The position numbers were made by a program, and so were the translations under genes. Under the pieces are notes generated by a model, which was not told the DNA's origin, made no database searches, and worked only from the letters and a program-made list of their open reading frames with translations. A stretch of DNA of 64,000 bases from Burkholderia sp. (lineage in GTDB: Bacteria > Pseudomonadota > Gammaproteobacteria > Burkholderiales > Burkholderiaceae), in assembly GCA_040954445.1 (NCBI GenBank), contig CP144361.1:1828293-1892292 (forward strand), read 5' to 3'. Shown here in pieces: positions 9,036 through 51,980 of the stretch; position 1 is the stretch's first letter; every line of letters begins with the position of its first letter.

Positions 9036-9300
9036 GGGTTGTTGCATATTGGTCCACAATTCGTGATCTTGAAATTAAAAAATCGGCCCTTATGTGAGGG
9101 GTATAGAACAACGAGGTATGAGGGCCGATTTTTTAATTTCAAGATCACGAATTGTGGACCAATAAATTAAGCATGAGGACGCAATGGCGTCGACGGACAT
9201 AATTTCAGGCGATACGAACAAATTGCGGGTGAGCGAGGTCCGGCCCCCATGCGGTTAATGACGGTCGAGGCGAATGGAAACCTCGCGATCGCCTGCGAGT
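9036..9300 (-). mobile_element. IS903-group 3' fragment split by a MITE
   Basis: A truncated 3' TIR (9036-9048) and about 140 bp of transposase 3' DNA (9163-9300) are the two halves of one fragment. The IS630-type MITE at 9049-9162 inserted at the TA within the TIR. Confidence 0.85.
9049..9162. mobile_element. MITE (IS630-derived), 114 bp, TA target duplication
   Basis: Near-perfect long inverted repeats (about 45 bp arms, outer bases TTGGTCC/GGACCAA) flanked by TA at 9047-9048 and 9163-9164. Removing it and one TA restores a recognisable IS903-like TIR, proving insertion there. Confidence 0.9.
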
Positions 9301-9718: not shown

Positions 9719-10306
9719 TTGATCAAAAATACGTGAACTTTACTCAAGCTGCATAAAAAATTGGTTTGTGCATGAAATAGCGAGCGACACGCTTTGGTGA
9801 TTTCTGGAGACGACGTAGATGCCTGATGACGGTTTTTTTGAGATGCCCCTTGGTTCGCGCAGAAGCCTGCTTCGTCACGTTCTCTTTCAGATCTGCGTTT
9901 AGCATCTCGTCTGGATTGAGCTCCGGACTATACGAGGGCAGATAGAACATCTCGATTTTGTCGACATGCTCGACCAACCACGCCTTGACCGACTTGGTGT
10001 GATAGACTTTCAGGTTGTCGAGAATCAGAAATATTTTCTTGCTGCGCATGTCTTTGATCAGTCTCTTCAGGAAGTCGAGCAGGATGTCTGCGTTTATAGC
10101 GCCTTCGAATACTTTCCAGCGCACCTGGCCACGGTTTGTCACCGTCGACATCACCGACAGGCGTTCGCGTCGGCTCGCCACGCACCGCTCGGGTATCTTG
10201 CCCATTGGGTGCGCGTAAGGGGCGGCTTCGCACATCATCTGAGCGCAGCCCTGTTTCGTCGCCCCACTGGATCTCCGCGCCTTCAGACATAACCCGGCGC
10301 AAAATC
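9719..10306 (-). pseudogene. IS630-family transposase, 5'-truncated
   Basis: The right end TTGATC at 9719 is followed on the minus strand by the C-terminal half of an IS630 transposase. It shows the end of the DDE domain with FLILDNLKVYH and SYSPELNPDE, and the C-terminus MHKPIFYAA near 9744. The frame is broken near 10230 and the 5' half is replaced by the IS903-group copy at 10307. This is the best preserved IS630 piece in the window. Confidence 0.88.
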
Positions 10307-11097
10307 GGCGTTGTTGCATAAATCGAGTGTGAGGATGCAATAGCATCGACGGGCATAATTTCAGGCGATACGAACGGATTGCGGACGAGCGCGGTCCGCC
10401 ATACGGTTGATGAGACGCCGACGCGAACGGAGACTTCGGTCGCCTGCGCGTCGATGTGACGCGCCCAGAGACAGTTGCCGGTGAGGGTCTTGAACTGATA
10501 CATCGCATTCTCGGCAAGCGATCGCCGGTGGTAGCCACTGTCTTGCTTCCATTCTCGACGACCGTCACGGGCAATTGCATCAACCGCGCCATTACGCCAC
10601 GCCGCACCCGGGCATATCCGCTGGCCAATGAACGGGGCACCCTCGCGTGGCGGAATCGAAGGAATAGCACTGCGTGCAGCAATGGCTGAATGGCATGGCT
10701 TGGTGTCGTAGGCACCATCACCGCCGATGACATCGATTTGTTCTTCGCGTGGAATCTGGTCGAGCAACTTGGCCAGAGCGTCACCGTCAGCCACATTCTG
10801 ATTCGTCATTAGCGCGGCATGCACTTGACCTGTATTCGCGTTGAGCGCGACATAGACCTTCAGACCGGTGCTGTCGACAACCAGATGGATCGGTTCATTG
10901 TCACGAAGGATCGGCAGTTGGACATCAAGCGTTTTTGCCCGGCGACAGAGCGTGGTGTAATTCGGCACCGGCAAGCTCGGGAAGGCCAGATCGCGCAGAC
11001 TTTGGGTGAAACCTTGCAGGGCACGCAAGGTCAGTCGATAGACGGTCTTCACGCCAAGTTAATACCTGAATCAGCGTATCCGCTGTATAGACGCGGG
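10307..11097 (-). mobile_element. IS903-group element, 5'-truncated and internally deleted
   Basis: The 3' TIR is at 10307. The minus-strand transposase has lost an internal stretch near 10855, where VVDSTGLKVY is joined directly to VALNANTGQ, and carries further frameshifts. It is cut at 11097 by the TIR of a plus-strand copy. Confidence 0.88.
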
Positions 11098-12226
11098 GGC
11101 GTTGTTGCATAAATCGAGCGAGATCCGTTGACGCTTATGCGCAACGGTCGCGGGGCCAGCCCCCTATCAAGTCAGGTTCCAGAGTAACTGCCTAATTCTT
11201 GCCAAGAAAATGCGCAAAGACATACACAAGAAAGGTGAGCCGAAGGCACGCTACCGTGTCAGGAATTGGGCGGCCTATAATGAAGGCCTGATCAACCGGG
11301 GGGAACAACGTAACAATATGGATAGATGAAGCCGTCCTTGCCAGAATACCCGATGCCATACCCACACGTGGTCGCCCGTGTCTATACGGCGATACGCTGA
11401 TTCAGGCATTACTTGGCGTGAAGACCGTCTATCGGCTGACGTTGCGTGCCCTGCAAGGTTTCACCCAAAGTCTGCGCGATCTGGCCTTCCCGAGCTTGCC
11501 GGTGCCGAATTACACCACGCTCTGTCGCCGGGCAAAAACGCTTGATGTCGAACTGCCGATCCTTCGTGACAATGAACCGATCCATCTGGTTGTCGACAGC
11601 ACCGGTCTGAAGGTCTATGGAGAAGGTGAATGGAAGGTGCGCCAGCACAGCTACTCGAAGCGGCGCACGTGGCGTAAAGTCCATCTCGCGCTCAACGGGA
11701 ATACGGGTCAAGTCCATGCCGCGCTAATGACGAATCAGAATGTAGCTGACGGTGACGCTCTGGCCAAGTTGCTCGACCAGATTCCACGCGAAGAACAAAT
11801 CGATGTCATCGGCGGTGACGGTGACTACGACACCAAGCCATGCCATGCGGCCATTGCTGCACGCAGTGCTATTCCTTCGATTCCGCCACGCGAGGGTGCC
11901 GTTCATTGGCCAGCGGATATGCCCGGTGCGGCGTGGCGTAATGGCGCGGTTGATGCAATTGCCCGTGACGGTCGCCGAGAATGGAAGCAAGACAGTGGCT
12001 ACCACCGGCGATCGCTTGCCGAGAATGCGATGTATCGGTTCAAGACCCTCACCGGCAACTGTCTCTGGACGCGTGACATCGACGCGCAGGCGACCCCGAG
12101 GTCGCCGTTCGCGTCGGCGTCATCAACCGTATGGCGGACCTCGCTTGTCCGCAATCCGTTCGTATCGCCTGAAATTATGCCCGTCGATACTATTGCATCC
12201 TCACACTCGATTTATGCAACAACGCC
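11098..12226 (+). mobile_element. IS903-group element, full length, frameshifted
   Basis: Both TIRs are present (1129 bp). The transposase begins at 11211 (MRKDIHK). Extra bases near 11305 shift the frame before IWIDEA, and an insertion near 12095 shifts the C-terminus. The central catalytic region is intact. Confidence 0.92.
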
Positions 12227-19064: not shown

Positions 19065-19165
19065 GGCGTTGTTGCATAAATCGAGCGTGAGGACGCCATG
19101 GTATCGCCTGAAATTATGCCCGTCGATACCATGGCGTCCTCACGCTCGATTTATGCAACAACGCC
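19065..19165. mobile_element. Palindromic mini-element (IS903 3' end doubled), 101 bp
   Basis: Two TIR-proximal segments of about 43 bp face each other around a 14-bp centre that belongs to only one arm. The ends are complete TIRs. Confidence 0.88.
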
Positions 19166-19412: not shown

Positions 19413-20632
19413 GGCGTTGTTGCATAAATCGAGTGTGAGGACGCAATAGCATCGACGGGCAATTTCAGGCGATACGAACAGATTGCGGACGAGCGAGGTC
19501 CGCCATACGCTTGATGAAGCCGACGCGAATGGAGACCTCGGTCGCCTGCGCCTCGATGTGACGCGCCCAGAGACAGTTGCCGGTGAGGGTCTTGAACCGA
19601 TACATCGCATTCTCGGCAAGCGATCGCCGGTGGTAGCCACTGTCTTGCTTCCATTCTCGACGACCGTCACGGGCAATTGCATCAACCGCGCCATTACGCC
19701 ACGCCGCACCGGGCATATCCGCTGGCCAATGAACGGCACCCTCGCGTGGCGGAATCGAAGGAATAGCACTGCGTGCAGCAATGGCCGCATGGCATGGCTT
19801 GGTGTCATAGGCACCATCACCGCCGATGACATCGATTTGTTCTTCGCGTGGAATCTGGTCGAGCAACTTGGCCAGAGCGTCACCGTCAGCCACATTCTGA
19901 TTCGTCATTAGCGCGGCATGCACTTGACCCGTATTCGCGTTGAGCGCGAGATGGACTTTACGCCACGTGCGCCGCTTCGAGTAGCCGTGCTGGCGCACCT
20001 TCCATTCACCTTCTCCATAGACCTTCAGACCGGTGCTGTCGACAACCAGATGGATCGGTTCATTGTCGCGAAGGATTGGCAGTTCGACATCAAGCGTTTT
20101 CGCCCGGCAACAGAGCGTGGTGTAATTTTGTACCGGCAAGCTCTGGAAGGCCAGATCGCGCAGACTTTGGGTGAAACCTTGCAGGGCGCGCAATATCAGT
20201 CGATAGATGGTCTTCACGCCAAGTAATGTCTGAATCAGGCGTATCGCCGTATAAAGACGGGCGACCACGCGTGGGTATGGCGTCGGGTATTCTGGCAAGG
20301 ACGGCTTCATCTATCCATATTGTTACGTTCCCCCGGTTGATCATTGTTACGTTCCCCCGGTTGATCATTGTTACGTTCCCCCGGTTGATCATTGTTACGT
20401 TCCCCAGGTTGATCATTGTTACGTTCCCCCGGTTGATCAGGCCTTCATTATAGGCCGCCCAATTCCTGACACGGTAGCGTGCCTTCGGCTCACCTTTCTT
20501 GTGTATGTCCTTGCGCATTTTTTTGGCAAAAATTAGGCAATTACTCTGGAATCTGACTTGATAACAGGAGGCTGGCCCCGTCCGTTGGACGTAAACCGTT
20601 ACCGGCTCTCGCTAGATTTATGCAACAACGCC
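19413..20632 (-). mobile_element. IS903-group element with an internal tandem repeat
   Basis: Both TIRs are present, but the element is 1220 bp because of four extra copies of a 24-bp unit in the 5' part of the transposase (20319-20438). A frameshift near 20240 separates the N-terminal part from an otherwise long C-terminal frame. Confidence 0.92.
20319..20438. repeat. 24-bp tandem repeat, five units
   Basis: Five units of a 24-bp sequence, one with a single substitution (C to A). They are in frame and repeat eight residues (INRGNVTM) in the minus-strand transposase. Other copies of the element carry one unit. Confidence 0.95.
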
Positions 20633-23463: not shown

Positions 23464-23502
23464 TGATGCAGCACTCGCTGCTGGGCTTTCAAGAGCGAAA
23501 AA

Positions 23503-23668
23503 GATTGTTGCATAAATTGAGCGTGAGGACGTAATGGAACGGATTGCGGACGAGCGAGATCCCCCATACGGGGTTGATTACGCCGACAGCGAACGGCGAC
23601 CCTCGGTCCGCCCCCCGAGGGGTCGATGTGACGCGCCGAGAGACAGTGTCCGGTGAGCGTTTTACACC
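23503..23668 (-). mobile_element. IS903-group 3' fragment, very degenerate
   Basis: The TIR remnant TTGTTGCATAAATTGAGCG and about 140 bp of transposase 3' end have many substitutions and small insertions. It is cut by a plus-strand 5' fragment. Confidence 0.75.
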
Positions 23669-23908
23669 GGTGTTGTTGTATAAATCTAGCGAGAGCCGGT
23701 GACGTTTACGCGCAATAGTCGTGACTAGCCCCCTGTGATCAATAGATTCCAGAGTAACTTCCTAATTTTTTCCAAGAAGATTCGCCGGGACATAGGCAAG
23801 ATATATGAGCCGAAGGCACGCTACCGTCTCCGGAACTGAGCGGGCCTCGCGACCGTTGTGCGTAAACTAAACGGTTAACGGCTCTCGCTCGATTTATGCA
23901 ACAACGCC
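23669..23908. mobile_element. IS903-group 5' fragments in opposite orientations
   Basis: 23669-23840 is a plus-strand TIR, leader and transposase start (scrambled, with a TGATCAATA scrap near 23737). 23841-23908 is a minus-strand leader and TIR. Nothing is coding. Confidence 0.7.
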
Positions 23909-24323
23909 GATGTATGGCTGGCCAGAATGTGGCGGCTCCGGTTTTGCTAGAAACAGATTTGGAGTAAAACGCATTATTTAAATTGGAGTCTGAGATGTTG
24001 CAAAAAGTGGACCTGCAGGAAGTTGCGCTGGCAGCGAAGGAAAAAGCGCGTAGCGCGACCGAAGATGCCTCTAGCACCGCAAAATTCAAACGGTGGTCCG
24101 TCCCCTTCTTTTCAGGGGTGGAAGCGTACTATCGTCCTGCGCTTGCTGCGCGGTAAAGCCGTTGATGCCGTTTCTCGTAAAGTCGGCGGCACGCTCGCCT
24201 AGCTCGAGCAATGGTATAAACTCGCCCTGGCAGGCATCGAAGCTCTTGATCACGAATTTCGGACCAATAGCCTAATTGAAAGGCGTGTCTGAACAACTGA
24301 ATCTGTTTCAATATGCCTAAAAA
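23909..24323. other. Relic region before lgt
   Basis: I find no intact gene. An ATG at 23995 opens MLQKVDLQEVALAAKEKARS, which soon dies. From about 24125 to 24240 a plus-strand frame reads TIVLRLLRGKAVDAVSRKVG, a stop, then LEQWYKLALAGIE. This looks like the HTH N-terminus of a different transposase (IS3-type OrfA is my best guess). A 22-bp micro-palindrome lies at 24246. Confidence 0.4.
24246..24267. mobile_element. 22-bp micro-palindrome, IS630-end type
   Basis: TTGATC at one end and a one-base-altered GACCAA at the other, followed by TA (24268-24269). Same family as 27033, 35785 and 36681. Confidence 0.65.
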
Positions 24324-25390: not shown

Positions 25391-25682
25391 TTGATCAAAA
25401 ATACGCGATCTTGAATTAAGCTGTATAGCGAATCGGTTAATGCATGAAATATTGATCCACAATTTGTGATCTTGAAATTTCGGCTCAATAAAGAGCGACA
25501 CGCTTTGCTGATTTCTGGAGACGACGCAGATGGCTGATGACGGCTTTCTTGAGATGCCCCTTGGGGCGGGCCGGAGCCCGCTTCGTCACGTTCGCTTTCA
25601 GATCTGCGTTGAGCATCTCTTCTGGATTGAGATCCGGACTGTACGACGGCAGGCAGAACACCTCGATCTTGTCGACGTGCTC
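25391..25682 (-). pseudogene. IS630-family transposase relic with nested element
   Basis: The right end TTGATC at 25391 (after TA) and the C-terminal part of the same IS630 transposase as at 9719 are present. A 37-bp element (25452-25488) is inserted in it, and it is truncated by an IS903-group TIR at 25683. Confidence 0.8.
25452..25488. mobile_element. 37-bp IS630-type mini-element with TA duplication
   Basis: It begins TTGATCC and ends GGCTCAA between TA at 25450-25451 and 25489-25490. Comparison with 9768-9790, where the host sequence runs through uninterrupted, shows it is an insertion. Confidence 0.8.
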
Positions 25683-27032: not shown

Positions 27033-27054
27033 TTGATCCGCAATTTGTGATCAA
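27033..27054. mobile_element. 22-bp micro-palindrome, TA-flanked
   Basis: TTGATC…GATCAA between TA at 27031-27032 and 27055-27056, lying exactly where the 5' end of one IS903-group copy is lost and 3 bp before the TIR of the next. Confidence 0.75.
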
Positions 27055-27058
27055 TATG

Positions 27059-28192
27059 GGCGTTGTTGCATAAATCGAGCGCTAGGACGCAATGGCATCG
27101 ACGGGCATAATTTCAGGTAATGCGAACGGATTGCGGACGAGCGAGGTCCGCCATGCGGTTGATGACGCCGCCGCGCAGGCGACCTCGGTCGCCTGCGCGG
27201 CGATGTGACGCGCCCAGAGACAGTGGCCGGTGAGGGTCTTGAACCGATACATCGCATTCTCGGCAAGCGATCGCCGGTGGTAGCCACTGTGTTGCTTCCA
27301 TTCTCGACGACCGTCACGGGCAATTGCATCAACCGCGCCATTACGCCACGCCGCACCGGGCATATCCGCTGGCCAATGAGCGGCACCCTCGCGTGGCGGA
27401 ATCGAAGGAATAGCACTGCGTGCAGCAATGGCCGCATGGCATGGCTTGGTGTCGTAGGCACCGTCACCGCCGATGACATCGATTTGTTCTTCGCGTGGAA
27501 TCTGGTCGAGCAACTGGGCCAGAGCGTCACCGTCAGCCACATTCTGATTCGTCATTAGCGCGGCATGCACTTGACCTGTATTCGCGTTGAGCGCGAGATG
27601 GACTTTACGCCACGTGCGCCGCTTCGAGTAGCCGTGCTGGCGCACCTTCCATTCACCTTCTCCATAGACCTTCAGACCGGTGCTGTCGACAACCAGATGG
27701 ATCGGTTCATTGTCACGAAGGATCGGCAGTTCGACATCAAGCGTTTTTGCCCGGCGACAGAGCGTGGTGTAATTCGGCACCGGCAAGCTCGGGAAGGCCA
27801 AATCGCGCAGACTTTGGGTGAAACCTTACAGGGCGCGCAAGGTCAGTCGATAGACGGTCTTCACGCCAAGTAATGCCTGAATCAGCGTATCGCCGTATAG
27901 ACACGGGATAGACACGGGCGACCACGTGTGGGTATGGCATCGGGTATTCTGGCAAGGACGGCTTCATCTATCCATATTGTTACGTTCCCCCGGTTGATCA
28001 GGCCTTCATTATAGGCCGCCCAATTCCTGACACGGTAGCGTGCCTTCGGCTCACCTGTCTTGTGTATGTCCTTGCGCATTTTCTTGGAAAAAAATTAGGC
28101 AGTTACTCTGGAATCTGACTTGATAGGGATCTGGCCCCGAGACTGTTGTGCGTAAACATCAATGGATCTCGCTCGATTTATGCAACAACGCC
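27059..28192 (-). mobile_element. IS903-group element, full length, frameshifted
   Basis: Both TIRs are present (1134 bp). An 11-bp duplication near 27896-27918 (TAGACACGGGA) shifts the transposase frame after PCL. The remaining frame (27082-27801) covers the catalytic domain, with a C-terminal shift near 27170. Confidence 0.92.
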
Positions 28193-30060: not shown

Positions 30061-31186
30061 GGCGTTGTTGCATAAATCGAGCGCGAGGACGCAATGGCAT
30101 CGACGGGCATAATTTCAGGCGATACGAACGGATTGCGGACGAGCGAGGTCCGCCATACGGTTGATGACGCCGCCGCGCAGGCGACCGAGGTCGCCTGCGC
30201 GGCGATGTGACGCGCCCAGAGACAGTGGCCGGTGAGGGTCTTGAACCGATACATCGCATTCTCGGCAAGCGATCGCCGGTGGTAGCCACTGTGTTGCTTC
30301 CATTCTCGACGACCGTCACGGGCAATTGCATCAACCGCGCCATTACGCCACGCCGCACCGGGCATATCCGCTGGCCAATGAGCGGCACCCTCGCGTGGCG
30401 GAATCGAAGGAATAGCACTGCGTGCAGCAATGGCCGCATGGCATGGCTTGGTGTCGTAGGCACCGTCACCGCCGATGACATCGATTTGTTCTTCGCGTGG
30501 AATCTGGTCGAGCAACTTGGCCAGAGCGTCACCGTCAGCCACATTCTGATTCGTCATTAGCGCGGCATGCACTTGACCTGTATTCGCGTTGAGCGCGAGA
30601 TGGACTTTACGCCCCACGTGCGCCGCTTCGAGTAGCTGTGCTGGCGGCACTTTCCATGCACCTTCTCCATAGACCTTCAGACCGGTGCTGTCGACAACCA
30701 GATGGATCGGTTCGTTGTCGCGAAGGATCGGCAGTTCGACATCAAGCGTTTTTGCCCGGCGACAGAGCGTGGTGTAATTCGGCACCGGCAAGCTCGGGAA
30801 GGCCAAATCACGCAGACTTTGGGTGAAACCTCGCAGGGCGCGCAAGGTCAGTCGATAGACGGTCTTCACGCCAAGTAATGCCTGAATCAGCGTATCGCCG
30901 TATAGACACGGGCGACCACGTGTGGGTATGGCATCGGGTATTCTGGCAAGGACGGCTTCATCTATCCATATTGTTACGTTCCCCCGGTTGATCAGGCCTT
31001 CATTATAGGCCGCCCAATTCCTGACACGGTAGCGTGCCTTCGGCTCACCTGTCTTGTGTATGTCTTTGCGCATTTTCTTGGAAAAAAATTAGGCAGTTAC
31101 TCTGGAATCTGACTTGATAGGGATCTGGCTCCGAGACTGTTGTGCGTAAACATCAATGGATCTCGCTCGATTTATGCAACAACGCC
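30061..31186 (-). mobile_element. IS903-group element, full length, altered frame
   Basis: Both TIRs are present (1126 bp). The minus-strand frame is open from MRKDIHK at 31073 down through the 3' TIR to 30036. Two compensating shifts replace EWKVRQHGYSKRRTWRKV by AWKVPPAQLLEAAHVGRKV, and a third shift alters the C-terminus (VACAAASSTVWR). It is probably inactive. The same replaced segment occurs in the plus-strand neighbour. Confidence 0.92.
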
Positions 31187-32178: not shown

Positions 32179-32229
32179 TTGATCCGCAATTTGCGATTTT
32201 CATTCTTAAAATCACGAATTGCGGTTCAA
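32179..32229. mobile_element. 51-bp IS630-type MITE, TA-flanked
   Basis: An imperfect inverted repeat with ends TTGATCCGCAATT and its complement GAATTGCGGTTCAA. TA lies at 32177-32178 and 32230-32231. It inserted at the TA of an IS903-group TIR. Confidence 0.82.
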
Positions 32230-34077: not shown

Positions 34078-34118
34078 GGCGTTGTTGCATAAATCGAGTG
34101 GATTTATGCAACAACGCC
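34078..34118. mobile_element. 41-bp TIR-only palindrome
   Basis: Two 18-bp TIRs (GGCGTTGTTGCATAAATC) face each other around the 5-bp centre GAGTG. It is the smallest member of the palindromic mini-element series. Confidence 0.88.
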
Positions 34119-35698: not shown

Positions 35699-35733
35699 AC
35701 GAGGAGACCTCAGCGCGCAGCGCCAGTCTCGAC

Positions 35734-35895
35734 GGCGTTGTTGCATAAATCAAGTGCGAGGACGCAATGGCATCCACGGGCATATTGATCACGAATTTCG
35801 GATCAAGAATTTCAGGCGATATGAACGGATTGCGGACGAGCGCGGTCCGCAATCCGTTCCGTTGCGTCCTCACACTCGATTTATGCAACAACGCC
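35734..35895. mobile_element. Palindromic mini-element with nested micro-palindrome, 162 bp
   Basis: IS903 3' end doubled head to head, with complete TIRs at both ends. The right arm lacks a ~29-bp segment present in the left arm. A 22-bp micro-palindrome lies at 35785-35806, flanked by TA on the left and GA on the right. The copy at 36630-36791 has the same structure and differs at about seven positions. Confidence 0.9.
35785..35806. mobile_element. 22-bp micro-palindrome nested in a mini-element
   Basis: TTGATC…GATCAA inserted at the TA of the GGGCATAATTTC segment of the IS903 3' end; the right-hand duplicate is mutated to GA. Confidence 0.85.
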
Positions 35896-36347
35896 GTTCG
35901 ACATCAAGCATTTTTGCCCGGCGACAGAGCGTGGTGTAATTCGGCACTGGAAAGCTCGGGAAGGCCAGATCGCGCAGACTTTGGGTGAAACCTTGCAGGG
36001 CGCGCAACGTCAGTCGATAGACGGTCTTCAAGCCAAGTAATGCTTGAATCAGCGTATCGCTGTATAGACACGGACGACCACGTGTGGGTATGGCATCGGG
36101 TATTCTGGCAAGGACGGCTTCATCTATCCATATTGTCACGTTCCCCCGGTTGATCAGGCCTTCATTATAGGCCGCCCAATTCCTGACACGGTAGTGTGCC
36201 TTCGGCTCACCTTTCTTGTGTATGTCCTTGCGTATTTTCTTGGCAAAAATTAGGCAGTTACTCTGGAATCTGACTTGATAGGAGGCTGGCCTCGCGACCG
36301 TTGCGCGTAAACGTCAACGGATCTCGCTCGATTTATGCAACAACGCC
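35896..36347 (-). mobile_element. IS903-group 5' fragment
   Basis: The minus-strand 5' TIR (ending 36347), leader and about the first 100 transposase codons, in an open frame down to the junction with the mini-element at 35896. Confidence 0.88.
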
Positions 36348-36629
36348 CCAGTTGCTTGACCAAATTCCACGCGAAGAACAAATCGATCTCATCGGCGGTG
36401 ACGGTGCCTAGGACACCAAGCCATGCCATGCTGCCATTGCTGCACGCAGTGCTATTCCTTCCATTCCGCCACGCGAAGGTGCCGCTCATTGGCCAGAGGA
36501 TATGCCTGGTGCGGTCTGGCGTAATGGGGCGGTTGATGCAATTGCCCGTGACGGTCGTCGAAAATGGAAACAAGACAGTGGCTACCACCGGCGATCGCTT
36601 GCCGAGAATGCGATGTATCGGTTCAAGAC
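36348..36629 (+). mobile_element. IS903-group internal fragment
   Basis: Transposase codons from about LLDQIPREEQID to ENAMYRFKT in plus orientation with no ends of its own, between a TIR and a mini-element. One stop (TAG at 36411) interrupts it. Confidence 0.87.
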
Positions 36630-36791
36630 GGCGTTGTTGCATAAATCAAGCGCGAAGACGCAATGGCATCGACGGGCATATTGATCACGAATTTCGGATC
36701 AATAATTTCAAGCGATATGAACGGATTGCGGACGAGCGAGGTCCGCAATCCGTTCCATTGCGTCCTCACACTCGATTTATGCAACAACGCC
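36630..36791. mobile_element. Palindromic mini-element with nested micro-palindrome, 162 bp
   Basis: The sister copy of 35734-35895: the same one-arm deletion and the same nested 22-bp palindrome (36681-36702), here with a perfect TA duplication (36679-36680, 36703-36704). Confidence 0.92.
36681..36702. mobile_element. 22-bp micro-palindrome with perfect TA duplication
   Basis: TTGATC…GATCAA between TA dinucleotides, inside the left arm of the mini-element. Confidence 0.88.
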
Positions 36792-36816
36792 GATCAATAG
36801 TGTAATAACGCCCCCG

Positions 36817-37812
36817 TTACAGGAGGCCGAACGATGCGAGCACTCCCTTCACCTGGGACAGCGAGGGCTGCGCGCCGGTCGTGCCGAGATTGACGACGTT
36901 CGGCGACCAGTAGCCGCCCGTGCGCCATGCGGTGGCGCAATTGTACAGTTCGACCGTTGGGCGCCTGAGCGCCGCCGCGATGTGTACGAGGCCGGTATCG
37001 ACACCGACCGTGGCCGCCGCGCCGTCGACCAGGCCCACCACGGCCGGCAGCGACATTTTTGGCGGCACGATCGCGACCGCACCGAACTCCCTGGCCAGCC
37101 GCTCGCTGGCGGCGCGCTCCACCTCGCTGCCCCAGGGTAACACCAGCGACGCGCCACGCTGCACTAGCGCTTGGCCGAGCTCGATCCAGGCGGCGTCGGG
37201 CCATTGCTTGTCTGCGCGCGACGTCGCATGGACGAAGACCACGTACGGTACCGGAAACTTCAGTTCTGCAGCCGCCAGCGCGCGTGCTGCCTGATGCGTA
37301 TTAAGACCGAAATCAAGCTCGTCGTCAGGCGACAGTGCTGGGTCGCCCAGAGCCGCGGCTACCAACTGGCGCGTGCGCTCCACCACGTGGGTACGCGGCG
37401 CGATCGGCACGCAGTGGCGGTAGAAGAACCGCACTGGCCATTCATAGCCGGCACCGTCTGTGCGGTTAGCCAGGCCGGTCAGTGGGCCGCGCGCCCAACT
37501 CGCCACCCAGGCGCTCTTGATCAGCCCCTGGCAGTCGATCACTAAATCGTAATGCTTGTCGGCGATTTGCCGGCGAAACGCACGGATCTCGCGCCAGGTC
37601 CGCGCGCTGCCTAGAGACTTTCGCCAGCGCCGCAGCGAAAACGGCAGCACCTTGCGCACGCCGTTTACCAGTTTGACCAGCTCGACGAAGTCTTCCTCGA
37701 CGAGCCAGTCGATCTGGGCATTCGGGTGGCGCCGGTGAATGTCGGCGATCACCGGCATATTGTGTACGACATCACCAAGCGACGAGACGCGTACGATTAG
37801 AATTTTATGCAC
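36817..37812 (-). CDS. waaC: Lipopolysaccharide heptosyltransferase I
   Basis: The 331-residue GT9 enzyme adds the first L,D-heptose to Kdo in the inner core of LPS at the cytoplasmic face of the inner membrane. The N-terminal HKILIVRVSSLGDVVHNMPV and the ADP-heptose-site motif VGVDTGLVHIAAALRRPTV are clear. I place the start at GTG 37812; upstream in-frame codons are not family-like. The donor heptose pathway includes rfaE1 (15766). A phosphomannomutase gene lies ~240 bp upstream on the same strand, separated by a 77-bp mini-element, so co-transcription may be disturbed. Confidence 0.94.
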   Translation of the reverse strand: MHKILIVRVSSLGDVVHNMPVIADIHRRHPNAQIDWLVEEDFVELVKLVNGVRKVLPFSLRRWRKSLGSARTWREIRAFRRQIADKHYDLVIDCQGLIKSAWVASWARGPLTGLANRTDGAGYEWPVRFFYRHCVPIAPRTHVVERTRQLVAAALGDPALSPDDELDFGLNTHQAARALAAAELKFPVPYVVFVHATSRADKQWPDAAWIELGQALVQRGASLVLPWGSEVERAASERLAREFGAVAIVPPKMSLPAVVGLVDGAAATVGVDTGLVHIAAALRRPTVELYNCATAWRTGGYWSPNVVNLGTTGAQPSLSQVKGVLASFGLL

Positions 37813-37873
37813 GCTAAAAATCGACAAAAAACCAGTACAGCCTAAAAAGCACAATTTTATTGCGTCGGCGGAT

Positions 37874-37950
37874 GGCATTGTTGCATAAATCGAGCGAGAT
37901 CCGTTGACGTTTACGCGCAACGGATCTCGCTCGATTTATGCAACAATGCC
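37874..37950. mobile_element. Palindromic mini-element (IS903 5' end doubled), 77 bp
   Basis: Two 33-34 bp segments of the transposase-proximal end (TIR GGCATTG…, then GAGCGAGATCCGTTG) face each other around a 9-bp centre. It is the only large palindrome in the window built from the 5' end rather than the 3' end. Confidence 0.9.
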
Positions 37951-38052
37951 TCTGCGAATCAATATCCCGTAAACGGGAGTGGCGGGAGGGAACATGTGGC
38001 GACCGGGAGCCGTTGGGCACGGTTCCGGCGCATCAGGCAAGGCTCTCGGGCC

Positions 38053-39447
38053 TCAGAATGGCAGCTTCGCGTCGGGCTTGGCGGTCGTCAGCGCGCGGCG
38101 GAATTCGCCCTTGATGCGCGCCAGAGCCTCGACCGAATTCGCCTCGAAACGCAGCACCACCACCGGTGTGGTGTTCGAGGAACGCGCTAAGCCGAAACCG
38201 TCTGGATACTCGACGCGCAGGCCGTCGATCGTGATGACCTCGTCGGCGCCCTCGAACTGCGCGGCCTGGTGTAGCTTCTCGATCAGCACGACGTTCTCGC
38301 CTTCTTCAAGCTTGAGCTGCAGTTCCGGCGTCGATTTGGCGTTTGGAAGGCTATTGAGCAGCGCGCTCGGATCGGCCACCCGCGCGAGAATTTCGAGCAG
38401 ACGCGCGCCGGCATAGAGGCCGTCGTCGAAGCCGTACCAGCGATCTTTGAAGAACACGTGGCCGCTCATCTCCCCGGCCAACGGCGCGCCGGTCTCGCGC
38501 AGCTTGGCCTTCACCAGTGAATGCCCGGTCTTCCACATCAGCGGCTTTCCGCCCTTCTCGCGGATCCACGGTGCTAGGTTGCGGGTACACTTGACGTCGT
38601 AGATGATCTGCGCGCCGGGGTTGCGCGACAGCACTTCCTCGGCAAACAGCATCATTTGGCGATCTGGATAGATGATCTGGCCGTCCTTGGTGACTATGCC
38701 GAGGCGGTCGCCGTCGCCGTCGAAGGCCAAGCCGAGCTCGGCATCGGTTTCTTTCAGCGCGCAGATCATATCCTGAAGGTTCTCGGGATGTGCCGGGTCC
38801 GGGTGGTGATTCGGGAAGTTGCCGTCGATCTCGGTGAACAGCTCGACCAGCTCGCAGTCGAGCGCTTTGAACAGGCGCGGTGCCAGTTCGCCGGCCACAC
38901 CGTTGCCGGTGTCGACCACGATCTTCAGCGGACGTGCCAGCTTGATGTCGCTGACGATGCGCTGCAGGTAGGTAGCAGCCACGTCGTGTTGCAGGTAGCT
39001 GCCGCTGCCCTCGGCATAATCGCCGGAAACGATGCGGCGGTATAGCGCCTGGATCTGCTCGCCGTAGATCGCCGCGCCGCGCAGCACTATCTTGAAGCCA
39101 TTGTAGTCGGGCGGATTGTGGCTGCCGGTTACGACGATGCAGGAATCCACGCGCCGCTCGCCGTTGGCCAACGGCAGCGGCACGCTGGCCGCGAAATAAC
39201 CGACCGGGGTCGGAACCATACCGACGTCGACCACATCGACGCCCGCCGCGCGCAGGCCATAGGCCAGCGAAGCAATCAGTTCCGGGCCGGAAAGCCGACC
39301 ATCGCGTGCGACCACCACCGCGTCGCCGCCCTGAGCGCGAACCTCGCTGCCAAAGGCCTGCCCGATCGAGCGGGCAACCGAGGTATTGAGCGTCTTGCCG
39401 ACTACGCCACGAATGTCATACGCTTTGAAGATAGATTGCGCAATCAT
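38053..39447 (-). CDS. Phosphomannomutase/phosphoglucomutase
   Basis: A 464-residue alpha-D-phosphohexomutase interconverting hexose 6- and 1-phosphates (AlgC/ManB/CpsG type), supplying GDP-mannose or glucose-1-phosphate for LPS and exopolysaccharide. The phosphoserine loop is VVTGSHNPPDYNGFK, the metal loop AFDGDGDRLG, and the sugar loop GEMSGHVFF. The start is MIAQSIFKAYDIRG at 39447. Neighbours on the same strand are waaC and a GT2 glycosyltransferase, which fits surface-polysaccharide supply. IS DNA begins within 70 bp upstream. Confidence 0.95.
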   Translation of the reverse strand: MIAQSIFKAYDIRGVVGKTLNTSVARSIGQAFGSEVRAQGGDAVVVARDGRLSGPELIASLAYGLRAAGVDVVDVGMVPTPVGYFAASVPLPLANGERRVDSCIVVTGSHNPPDYNGFKIVLRGAAIYGEQIQALYRRIVSGDYAEGSGSYLQHDVAATYLQRIVSDIKLARPLKIVVDTGNGVAGELAPRLFKALDCELVELFTEIDGNFPNHHPDPAHPENLQDMICALKETDAELGLAFDGDGDRLGIVTKDGQIIYPDRQMMLFAEEVLSRNPGAQIIYDVKCTRNLAPWIREKGGKPLMWKTGHSLVKAKLRETGAPLAGEMSGHVFFKDRWYGFDDGLYAGARLLEILARVADPSALLNSLPNAKSTPELQLKLEEGENVVLIEKLHQAAQFEGADEVITIDGLRVEYPDGFGLARSSNTTPVVVLRFEANSVEALARIKGEFRRALTTAKPDAKLPF

Positions 39448-39459
39448 CGACTTACTCTC

Positions 39460-39516
39460 TATGGTATTTTGCATAAATCTGGCAAGGGCCGGTGACATTT
39501 ATTGATCAGCAATTGT
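39460..39516. repeat. IS903/IS630 end debris
   Basis: TTTTGCATAAATCTGGC with CCGGTGACATTTA resembles a 5' end, interrupted by a partial TTGATCAGCAATTGTGG of IS630 type. Confidence 0.55.
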
Positions 39517-39653
39517 GGCGTGTTGCATAAATCGAGCGCGAGGACGCAATGGCATCGACGGGCACAATTTCAGGCAATACGAACAGATTGCCGACGAGCA
39601 AGGTCCGCAGTTTGTTCCATTGCGTCCTCAAGCTCGATTTATGCAACAACGCC
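39517..39653. mobile_element. Palindromic mini-element without nested insert, 137 bp
   Basis: The same right-arm deletion as in 35734-35895 and 36630-36791 but no 22-bp insert; the corresponding site reads GGGCACAATTTC. It serves as the empty-site relative. Confidence 0.88.
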
Positions 39654-41833: not shown

Positions 41834-42960
41834 GGCGTTGTTGCATAAATCGAGTGTGAGGATGCAATAGCATCGACGGGATAATTTCAGGCGATACGAA
41901 CGGATTGCGGACGAGCGAGGTCCGCCATACGGTTGATGACGCCGACGCGAATGGAGACCTCGGTCGCCTGCGAGGCGATGTGACGCGCCCAGAGACAGTT
42001 GCCGGTGAGGGTCTTGAACCGATAGATCGCATTCTCGGCAAGCGATCGGCGGTGGTAGCCACTGTCTTGCTTCCATTCTCGACGACCGTCACGGGCAATT
42101 GCATCAACCGAGCCATTACGCCACGCCGCACCGGGCATATCCGCTGGCCAATGAACGGCACCCTCGCGTGGCGGAATCGAAGGAATAGCACTGCGTGCAG
42201 CAATGGCCGCATGGCATTGCTTGGTGTCGTAGGCACCATCACCGCCGATGACATCGATTTGTTCTTCGCGTGGAATCTGGTCGAGCAACTTGGCCAGAGC
42301 GTCACCGTCAGCCACATTCTGATTCGTCATTAGCGCGGCATGCACTTGACCCGTATTCGTGTCGAGCGCGAGATGGACTTTACGCCACGTGCGCCGCTTC
42401 GAGTAGCCGTGCTGGCGCACACCTTCCATTCACCTTCTCCATAGACCTTCAGACCGGTGCTGTCGACAACCAGATAGATCGGTTCATTGTCACGAAGGAT
42501 CGGCAGTTCGACATCAAGCGTTTTTGCCCGGCGACAGAGCGTGGTGTAATTCGGCACCGGCAAGCTCGGGAAGACCAGATCGCGCAGACTTTGGGTGAAA
42601 CCTTGCAGGGCGCGCAACGTTAGTCGATAGACGGTCTTCACGCCAAGTAATGTCTGAATCAGCGTATCGCCGTATAGACACGGGCGACCACGTGGGGGTA
42701 TGGCATCGGGTATTCTGGCAAGGAGGGCTTCATCTATCCATATTGTTACGTTCCCCCGGTTAATCAGGCCTTCATTATAGGGGCCCGCCCAATTCCTGAC
42801 ACGGTAGCGTGCCTTCGGCTCACCTGTCTTGTGTATGTCCTTGCACATTTTCTTTTCAAAAATTAAGCAGTTACTCTGGAATCTGACTTGATAGGAGGCT
42901 GGCCCCGCGACCGTTGCGCGTAAACGTCACCGGATCTCGCTCGATTTATGCAACAACGCC
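41834..42960 (-). mobile_element. IS903-group element, full length, inserted in another copy
   Basis: Both TIRs are present (1127 bp), with a perfect 9-bp target duplication on either side, the length typical of the IS903 group. The transposase (MCKDIHK at 42848) is broken by a 2-bp insertion near 42420 and small indels near 42785. Confidence 0.95.
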
Positions 42961-44485: not shown

Positions 44486-44651
44486 GGCGTTGTTGCATAA
44501 ATCGAGCATGAGGACGCAATGGCATCGACGGGCATAATTTCAGGCGATACGAATGGATTGCGGACGAGCGAGGTCCGCCATGCGGTTGATGACGCCGGCG
44601 AGCGTTGCGCGTAAACGTCAACGGCTTTCGCTAAATTTACGCAACAACGCC
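44486..44651 (-). mobile_element. Internally deleted IS903-group element, 166 bp
   Basis: About 105 bp of the 3' end are joined directly to about 60 bp of the 5' end, keeping both TIRs (5' TIR slightly altered). This is a classical internal-deletion MITE, distinct from the palindromic type. Confidence 0.87.
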
Positions 44652-44673
44652 GCTCGATTTATGCAACAACGCC
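44652..44673. repeat. IS903-group TIR remnant providing the coq7 start
   Basis: CTCGATTTATGCAACAACGCC (with one leading base) is an isolated TIR end. Its ATG at 44661 is in frame with coq7. Confidence 0.85.
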
Positions 44674-51915: not shown

Positions 51916-51980
51916 GGCGTTGTTGCATAAATCGAGCGCGAGGACGCAATGGCATCGCGCTCGATTTATGCAACAACGCC
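51916..51980. mobile_element. Palindromic mini-element, 65 bp
   Basis: Two TIRs with unequal lengths of the 3' end (about 41 bp left, 24 bp right) face each other. It ends 11 bp before the mlaB stop. Confidence 0.87.

Follow-up and report, generated by a model that had tools for sequence, protein, structure and literature searches.

Mini-elements formed from head-to-head doubled ends of an IS5-family insertion sequence in a Burkholderia genome, and a possible snap-back origin

The DNA analysed here, a stretch of 64,000 nucleotides from Burkholderia sp. (contig CP144361.1, positions 1,828,293 to 1,892,292; hereafter the window), carries short palindromic elements in which one end of a resident IS5-family insertion sequence (IS) is doubled head to head. 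These doublets are most readily understood as miniature inverted-repeat transposable elements (MITEs) that arose by hairpin snap-back copying of a single IS end, after which two of them, P1 and P2, and probably a third, P3, were carried as units; the probability of this reading is put at roughly 0.55. It builds on direct observations of the anatomy, recurrence and centres of the doublets, the common descent of P1 and P2, insertion targets used in common with other IS ends, and one empty site. The DNA very probably comes from Burkholderia sp. LvStB, a symbiont of Lagria villosa, or from a very close relative.

Doubled ends of one insertion sequence

IS-related sequence makes up 42% of the window. 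A full-length copy of about 1.13 kb served as the reference:

30061–31186, minus strand: full-length reference IS copy.

The transposase of this parent element is about 318 amino acids long. It matches proteins from metagenome-assembled genomes (MAGs) labelled 'IS5 family transposase [Burkholderia sp.]', and in two copies other than the reference the Pfam families DDE_Tnp_1_5 and DDE_Tnp_1 were read. A 9-bp target duplication is a mark of the IS903-like group; a clear one was found at one of the 12 long left/right IS pairs, and the other 11 have none. With its transposase families and this single duplication, the parent element fits the IS903-like group of the IS5 family. The pair in question is a copy nested in another IS:

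41834–42960, minus strand: full-length IS nested in another IS copy, with the 9-bp target duplication CTTCGTGAC on both sides.

Both tips of the IS are the same 18 bp, and the copies are about 93% identical to one another (median of 190 pairs, positions 60–455). Two side observations concern the parent. In the copy at 19413–20632, a 24-bp unit occurs five times at 20319–20439, giving an 8-residue repeat in the transposase frame 20090–20518. At 44604–44673, two IS tips lie in direct tandem (a 22-bp repeat, twice), possibly as a junction remnant.

From hand-curated lists of 36 left-facing and 29 right-facing termini, neighbouring facing tips give 22 pairs, 12 of them longer than 1 kb and 10 shorter than 400 bp. 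All 12 long pairs combine a left end (LE) with a right end (RE). The short pairs, by contrast, comprise seven RE/RE, two LE/LE and one LE/RE, so that same-end doublets account for 9/10 short pairs vs 0/12 long pairs (Fisher p 2e-5). Since internal deletion of an IS would yield left/right mini-elements, a different process must dominate among the short elements. The ten short pairs are as follows, with the strand where one was assigned:

35734–35895, plus strand: P1, RE/RE doublet, 162 bp; intact left arm with a nested 22-bp piece, deleted right arm.
36630–36791, plus strand: P2, RE/RE doublet, 162 bp; sister of P1.
39517–39653, plus strand: P3, RE/RE doublet, 137 bp; one base missing at the left terminus, nested piece absent.
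2250–2416: P0, undeleted RE/RE doublet, 167 bp; 80-bp arms and a 7-bp centre that is placed as in P1–P3 and carries a few substitutions.
19065–19165: RE/RE doublet, 101 bp; 42-bp arms, centred on a second RE hairpin.
51916–51980: RE/RE doublet, 65 bp; 3-bp native stem at the centre.
34078–34118: RE/RE doublet, 41 bp; centre without a native stem.
37874–37950: LE/LE doublet, 77 bp; centre CCGTTG-N11-CAACGG, flanks TCGGCGGAT and TCTGCGAAT.
23669–23908: LE/LE doublet, 240 bp; diverged, with long unequal arms.
44486–44651: LE/RE facing pair of the ordinary internal-deletion type, the only short LE/RE pair in the window.

Six of the doublets were folded, P1 and P2 after trimming of the outermost 13 bp, and all proved very stable, with z scores of -5.7 to -17.1; a solo RE scores 0.36.

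Common descent of P1, P2 and probably P3

An initial annotation of this DNA had described P1–P3 as one IS end doubled head to head, free of coding DNA and lacking the same ~29 bp from the right arm. All three points are borne out: each is a doubled RE of the IS5-family element, and the pattern spanning the 29-bp deletion junction (up to three mismatches) has four matches in the window vs none in 100 shuffles. Its statement that each has two perfect ends has to be amended for P3, whose left tip reads GGCG-TGTTGC, with one base lost.

P1 and P2 differ at seven of 162 sites and have in common the nested piece, the arm deletion and two variants, TCAAG and GATATGAACGG, which occur in 0/20 solo right ends. 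They lie 0.9 kb apart and stand at different points of the IS, with unrelated flanks. The 200-bp flanks of P1–P3 hold no common stretch except a 16-bp match of chance level between the two flanks of P1 itself; for this reason local duplication of flanking DNA was dropped as the source of the three elements. Relative to the abutting IS, P1 and P3 are oriented one way and P2 the opposite way. Because private changes are common to P1 and P2 and flanking sequence is not, the comparison supports the view that this pair forms a sub-family copied as a unit. P3, which matches P2 at 123/137 aligned sites, is likely of the same descent and likely also moved as a unit; the case is weaker here, because the 29-bp segment is a hairpin in its own right and its loss is also seen once in an IS end that is no palindrome. 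Thus the proposal that all three descend from one founder and moved as units is supported for P1 and P2 and is probable for P3. In all three, both arms presumably come from one end.

Joint movement of an IS 5-prime part together with its palindrome was also considered and dropped, as the IS fragments adjoining P1 and P3 do not pair up as clear sisters: for the one at P1, four copies tie as best match at 0.959, P3's fragment among them, and the one at P3 is closest to another copy (0.975).

The nested palindrome TTGATCACGAATTTCGGATCAA occupies the same place in P1 and P2, and P3 and the solo right ends retain the uninterrupted site, just as the initial annotation had noted for the three elements:

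35785–35806: nested 22-bp palindrome in P1, flanked by TA and GA.
36681–36702: nested 22-bp palindrome of P2, with TA on either side.

It resembles a mini-element end that has collapsed, from a second family with TA flanks whose other forms are found elsewhere in the window:

691–806, about 1904–2021 and 9047–9164: hairpins of about 116–118 bp with the same tip as the nested piece.
32179–32229 (51 bp) and 25452–25488 (37 bp): shorter forms.
457–478, 24246–24267 and 27033–27054: 22-bp forms.

TA stands on both sides of the piece in P2 and of the copy at 27033, and on one side in P1 and at 457 and 24246. By comparison of these forms, the 22-bp version may derive from a relative of about 117 bp by deletion between GATC repeats. 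A stretch of an IS630-type transposase (DDE_3) lies in the frame 9744–10796 and is a candidate for moving the TA family.

Proposed snap-back copying and competing explanations

The centres of the doublets point to hairpins built into the IS ends. Among 2487 possible pairings in the RE consensus (20 solo ends), there is a single 6-bp Watson-Crick stem, GCGGAC-N7-GTCCGC, and among 1733 in the LE consensus (17 solo ends) a single one, CCGTTG-N11-CAACGG; the solo ends were hand-picked, and the stem is intact in 15/20 of the right and 9/17 of the left ends. The RE stem is the centre of the doublets at 35734, 36630, 39517 and, with substitutions, 2250, and the LE stem is the centre of 37874. As the centre may have been inherited within the four RE doublets, the stem-centred doublets count as at least two founding events. 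The second RE hairpin, GTATCG-N17-CGATAC, forms the centre of 19065 and also constitutes the 29-bp segment missing from one arm of P1–P3; it is mismatched in most solo ends. The doublets at 19065, 23669, 34078, 37874 and 51916, being centred elsewhere, are separate rearrangements. Consequently, the initial annotation's view that the doubled ends are not a set of independent rearrangements fails for the class as a whole, which comprises nine doublets, several centres and two end types. Most likely, doublets arose several times, by snap-back template switching.

Signs of one end copied twice are seen in the arms. Both arms of P0 carry CATTGAAGG and GATCCGAACGG, which 0/20 solo right ends do (single bases of the CATTGAAGG variant appear in two of them); variants common to both arms are what copying one end twice predicts. 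In 19065, 37874 and 51916 the arms pair without a mismatch.

In the proposed mechanism, the nascent strand would fold at the subterminal hairpin during copying of an IS end (GCGGAC-N7-GTCCGC in the RE, CCGTTG-N11-CAACGG in the LE) and then, with itself as template, retrace the arm as far as its tip. Since the IS has the same 18 bp at either tip, the strand could reattach at the opposite end; the transposase gene would be skipped, and the product would have the form tip-arm-hairpin-arm-tip. With two terminal repeats, such a product could be moved in trans by full-length IS copies. P1, P2 and probably P3 would stem from one palindrome that had lost a hairpin from one arm, and one branch would have taken up a collapsed 22-bp mini-element of the TA family. 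The palindrome would then have been carried as a unit to several places, each beside IS-internal sequence, where later rearrangements would have erased the target duplications. A related idea, that every doublet formed from the end of the IS it abuts, was rejected: on hand reading, the end type lost differs from the type doubled in four of eight cases.

The junctions bear on how these elements, or their precursors, were inserted. Where a palindrome ends with its terminal repeat, IS-internal sequence begins:

P1, right edge: IS position about 456–459; target 448.
P2, left edge: IS position 952; target 944, within 1 bp of the target of the IS at 27059–28192.
P3, right edge: IS position about 719–721; target 713.
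19065 doublet, right edge (19165): IS position 277; within 1 bp of the target of the IS at 11098.
34078 doublet, left edge: IS position 88; target also of the IS ends at 31186 and 4731.

Three of the six palindrome junctions (34078 at 88, 19165 at 277 and 36630 at 944) thus fall on 9-bp targets of other IS ends, against a random mean of 0.18 (p 0.00035 within 1 bp, 0.0019 within 2 bp and 0.006 within 3 bp, assuming equally likely positions). In this comparison the two sides of a target were treated as lying 9 bp apart; it covers the 19 of 65 junctions that passed the alignment threshold, six at palindromes and 13 elsewhere; the IS-side flanks of 2250 and 23669 failed it. The coincidence points to transposase-type joining at these three junctions. 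Taken alone, it is silent on whether a palindrome or a full IS arrived. An apparent further coincidence, of 51916 with the IS at 19413 (positions 522 and 523), was discarded, as the targets are 522 and 515 once the offset is applied. As a side observation, internal IS targets lie at about 88, 277, 465 and 943; the targets 88, 277/278 and 943/944 each received two or more IS ends or doublets, and target 465 bears the clear 9-bp duplication.

The LE/LE doublet at 37874 appears to keep a trace of its target. Its flanks TCGGCGGAT and TCTGCGAAT agree at 7/9 positions, as in a decayed 9-bp duplication; such likeness is expected in 0.2% of random 9-mer pairs, or about 2% for one match among nine doublets. 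In two related genomes (G017 and G053) the insert is absent and a single copy of the target is present, i.e., the site is empty, and the protein P0002 from another Burkholderia MAG reads straight through the insertion place; a third relative (G031) is too diverged there to be called. The heptosyltransferase frame as listed (36817–37920) starts inside this doublet. The mini-element would thus give the heptosyltransferase an alternative start and N-terminus; the two relatives examined start differently.

Several observations weigh against snap-back copying followed by movement as a unit. The 9-bp target duplications that the initial annotation had proposed to look for are absent at P1, P2 and P3, where 3, 6 and 0 of nine positions agree. 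The 29-bp deletion cannot serve as the mark of a single founder, because the fourth junction match (two mismatches) lies in a fragment that is no palindrome:

23501–23669, minus strand: non-palindromic fragment of an IS right end, lacking the same 29 bp.

Left and right arms differ within P1–P3, so that self-copying is not directly visible there. P1 (448), P3 (713) and 51916 (522) have no target in common with other IS ends. Once G-T pairs are allowed, the RE offers three 6-pair stems (the LE still one), and not every centre is explained by hairpins: that of 51916 is a 3-bp stem, 34078 has none, and 23669 is a long-loop junction. Finally, the empty site at 37874 would be expected just as much if a full IS had been converted in place.

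In-place conversion is indeed a serious rival, though the less probable account. It holds that at the place of each doublet a full-length IS inserted in the normal way and subsequently collapsed there by hairpin snap-back, so that only full IS copies ever moved. In this way it accounts for the several different centres, for the targets in common with full-length copies, and, with no mobile palindrome, for the duplication and empty site of the LE/LE doublet. What it handles poorly is the P1/P2 pair: the two stand at different IS targets (448 and 944) in unrelated flanks, and two separate collapses would have to repeat the same nested 22 bp, the same one-arm deletion and the same two variants absent from 20 solo REs.

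Next comes deletion between two inverted IS copies that left their outer ends facing, with the 6-bp hairpin arms acting as direct repeats between the copies. This yields the same centre sequence as snap-back, and the arms of P1–P3 do differ as if drawn from separate copies, only one of which bore the 29-bp deletion; the end at 23501 demonstrates that a deletion-bearing IS end exists. The explanation is nevertheless improbable, given that both arms of P0 share variants seen in none of the 20 solo right ends and that the mismatch-free arms of 19065, 37874 and 51916 look as if drawn from one parent end.

Spread of the palindrome between IS ends by homologous recombination or gene conversion, in place of transposition, could draw on the high identity and abundance of the IS copies. 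Still, all six palindrome junctions pass from the edge of the terminal repeat directly into unrelated IS-internal positions, and Lv-StB was reported to lack recA, ruvABC and recG (PMC7042692, as stated for an earlier assembly, the time of loss being open); this route is accordingly rated very unlikely. Perfect palindromes can be sequencing artefacts, and the likely source genome is described as built from long reads only (PMC11542224), but a fold-back or assembly artefact is barely credible in view of the diverged arms of P1–P3, the nested insert common to P1 and P2, and the decayed duplication beside the LE/LE doublet.

Beyond snap-back and unit movement in this window, a broader generalization is tentatively offered. 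IS ends may repeatedly turn palindromic by snap-back at built-in hairpins in a reduced, repair-poor symbiont, and such one-ended palindromes may themselves be mobile, so that an IS makes its own minimal parasites without the classical left-plus-right deletion; the second, TA-flanked family may be collapsing to its tips in parallel.

Host genome and known systems

The window has a G+C content of 58.3%. Its heptosyltransferase is nearest to that of Burkholderia gladioli (91% amino acid identity, the best among the 120 matches listed), and its IMP dehydrogenase gene is nearest to that of G017 (92% nucleotide identity, the best of 65 Burkholderia genomes). For comparison, the LvStB_2023 genome is reported at 58.63% G+C (PMC11542224). 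In an earlier Lv-StB assembly, a multicopy IS5-family transposase was described, mutS was reported missing along with the recombination genes named above, and polA was apparently broken by a transposase (PMC7042692). The host is very likely a beetle-protecting bacterium, and its genome is choked with repeats.

Synteny was followed against a single relative, the B. gladioli-like G017, over 32.2–45.3 and 46.6–58.5 kb. Host islands between 32332 and 56278 of the window map to about 819, 2082, 2384, 1979, 2030, 1641 and 1901 kb of one G017 contig; being scattered in this way, they mark the IS clusters as synteny breakpoints. Only 37874, of the six doublets in the mapped stretches, sits between pieces that are adjacent in G017; the host pieces flanking 34078, 35734, 36630, 39517 and 51916 lie far apart there, which may account for the lack of target duplications at these doublets. 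Movement of an element of the IS903 sub-group of IS5 with a large deletion and without target duplication has been reported (PMC11708052).

The exact IS terminus occurs in 6/65 Burkholderia genomes, with nine termini in total. Two of these nine loci (L087 and L088) were read, and the latter (G046 contig 61, 3897–4034) is a mini-element of the ordinary kind, 138 bp long, with differing halves and the same 18 bp at its tips; judged by coordinates, it is the sole short facing pair among the nine. The junction pattern GCARTYYGTTCCRTTGCGTCCTC has no exact match in the genome contig collection or in the viral contigs searched, and P1 with its short flanks (35700–35930) has no match among plasmids. 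Patterns of facing ends with gaps of 28–58 and 105–135 were each found in 0/299 Burkholderiaceae genomes, which is a weak negative given that the terminus itself is rare. In the open PMC literature, subscription papers lying outside this scope, no description of IS ends doubled in this manner was found, including in the consulted portions of two MITE papers (PMC5896051 and PMC10969869).

The origin of non-autonomous mini-transposons has mostly been inferred from finished families. The present window seems to hold several stages side by side, i.e., hairpin-bearing solo ends, doublets whose arms match perfectly, one doublet without the deletion, and a minor sub-family that spread, and it suggests a simple birth route for miniature mobile DNA. 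If confirmed genome-wide, hairpin snap-back combined with common tips would offer a concrete, testable route to mini-transposons and would predict which ends, and which repair-deficient genomes, yield such elements. The process would also be one more source of hairpin DNA and of IS ends without genes in genomes that are being reduced.

Like bacterial MITEs, the doublets are short and non-coding, are bounded by the terminal inverted repeats of a resident IS (one base short at the left terminus of P3) and coexist with many larger copies. Within the window, P1 and P2 are dispersed copies of common descent at unrelated sites, and P3 is probably another. An ordinary MITE retains a left end as well as a right end and usually originates by internal deletion. 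Here, a single end supplies both halves and its own hairpin lies in the middle, and 9/10 short facing pairs are two copies of a single end.

Resemblances to other systems are partial. REPINs are likewise mobile inverted pairs of one end-like sequence that form hairpins and are proposed to spread by a transposase encoded elsewhere (PMC3116915). Unlike REPINs, the present elements have the ends of a DDE IS5-family IS with a 9-bp duplication, and they are few and diverse in the presence of abundant full-length IS copies; judged on their arms, they are DDE IS ends and not repetitive extragenic palindromic sequences, no search for a RAYT gene having been made. Galileo of Drosophila comprises foldback-like elements with extended terminal repeats that invite comparison with the doublets, but it is a eukaryotic member of the P superfamily with long terminal repeats and, in the parts of its description drawn on here, no tie to one defined end hairpin (PMC4168063). 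The deletion-linked movement cited above may apply to most IS copies and palindromes of the window, even though the case described there concerns a full-length IS and not palindromic minis (PMC11708052). Comparable in mechanism is quasipalindrome template switching in Escherichia coli, in which an imperfect inverted repeat lets the nascent strand fold back and use one arm as template for the other, so that the palindrome becomes perfect; the reporter cases described change 4 bp in an 18-bp site (PMC6357072), whereas here IS ends of 24–80 bp would be duplicated. The parts of the mechanism are therefore known singly, and their combination at the ends of this insertion sequence is, as far as can be seen, new.

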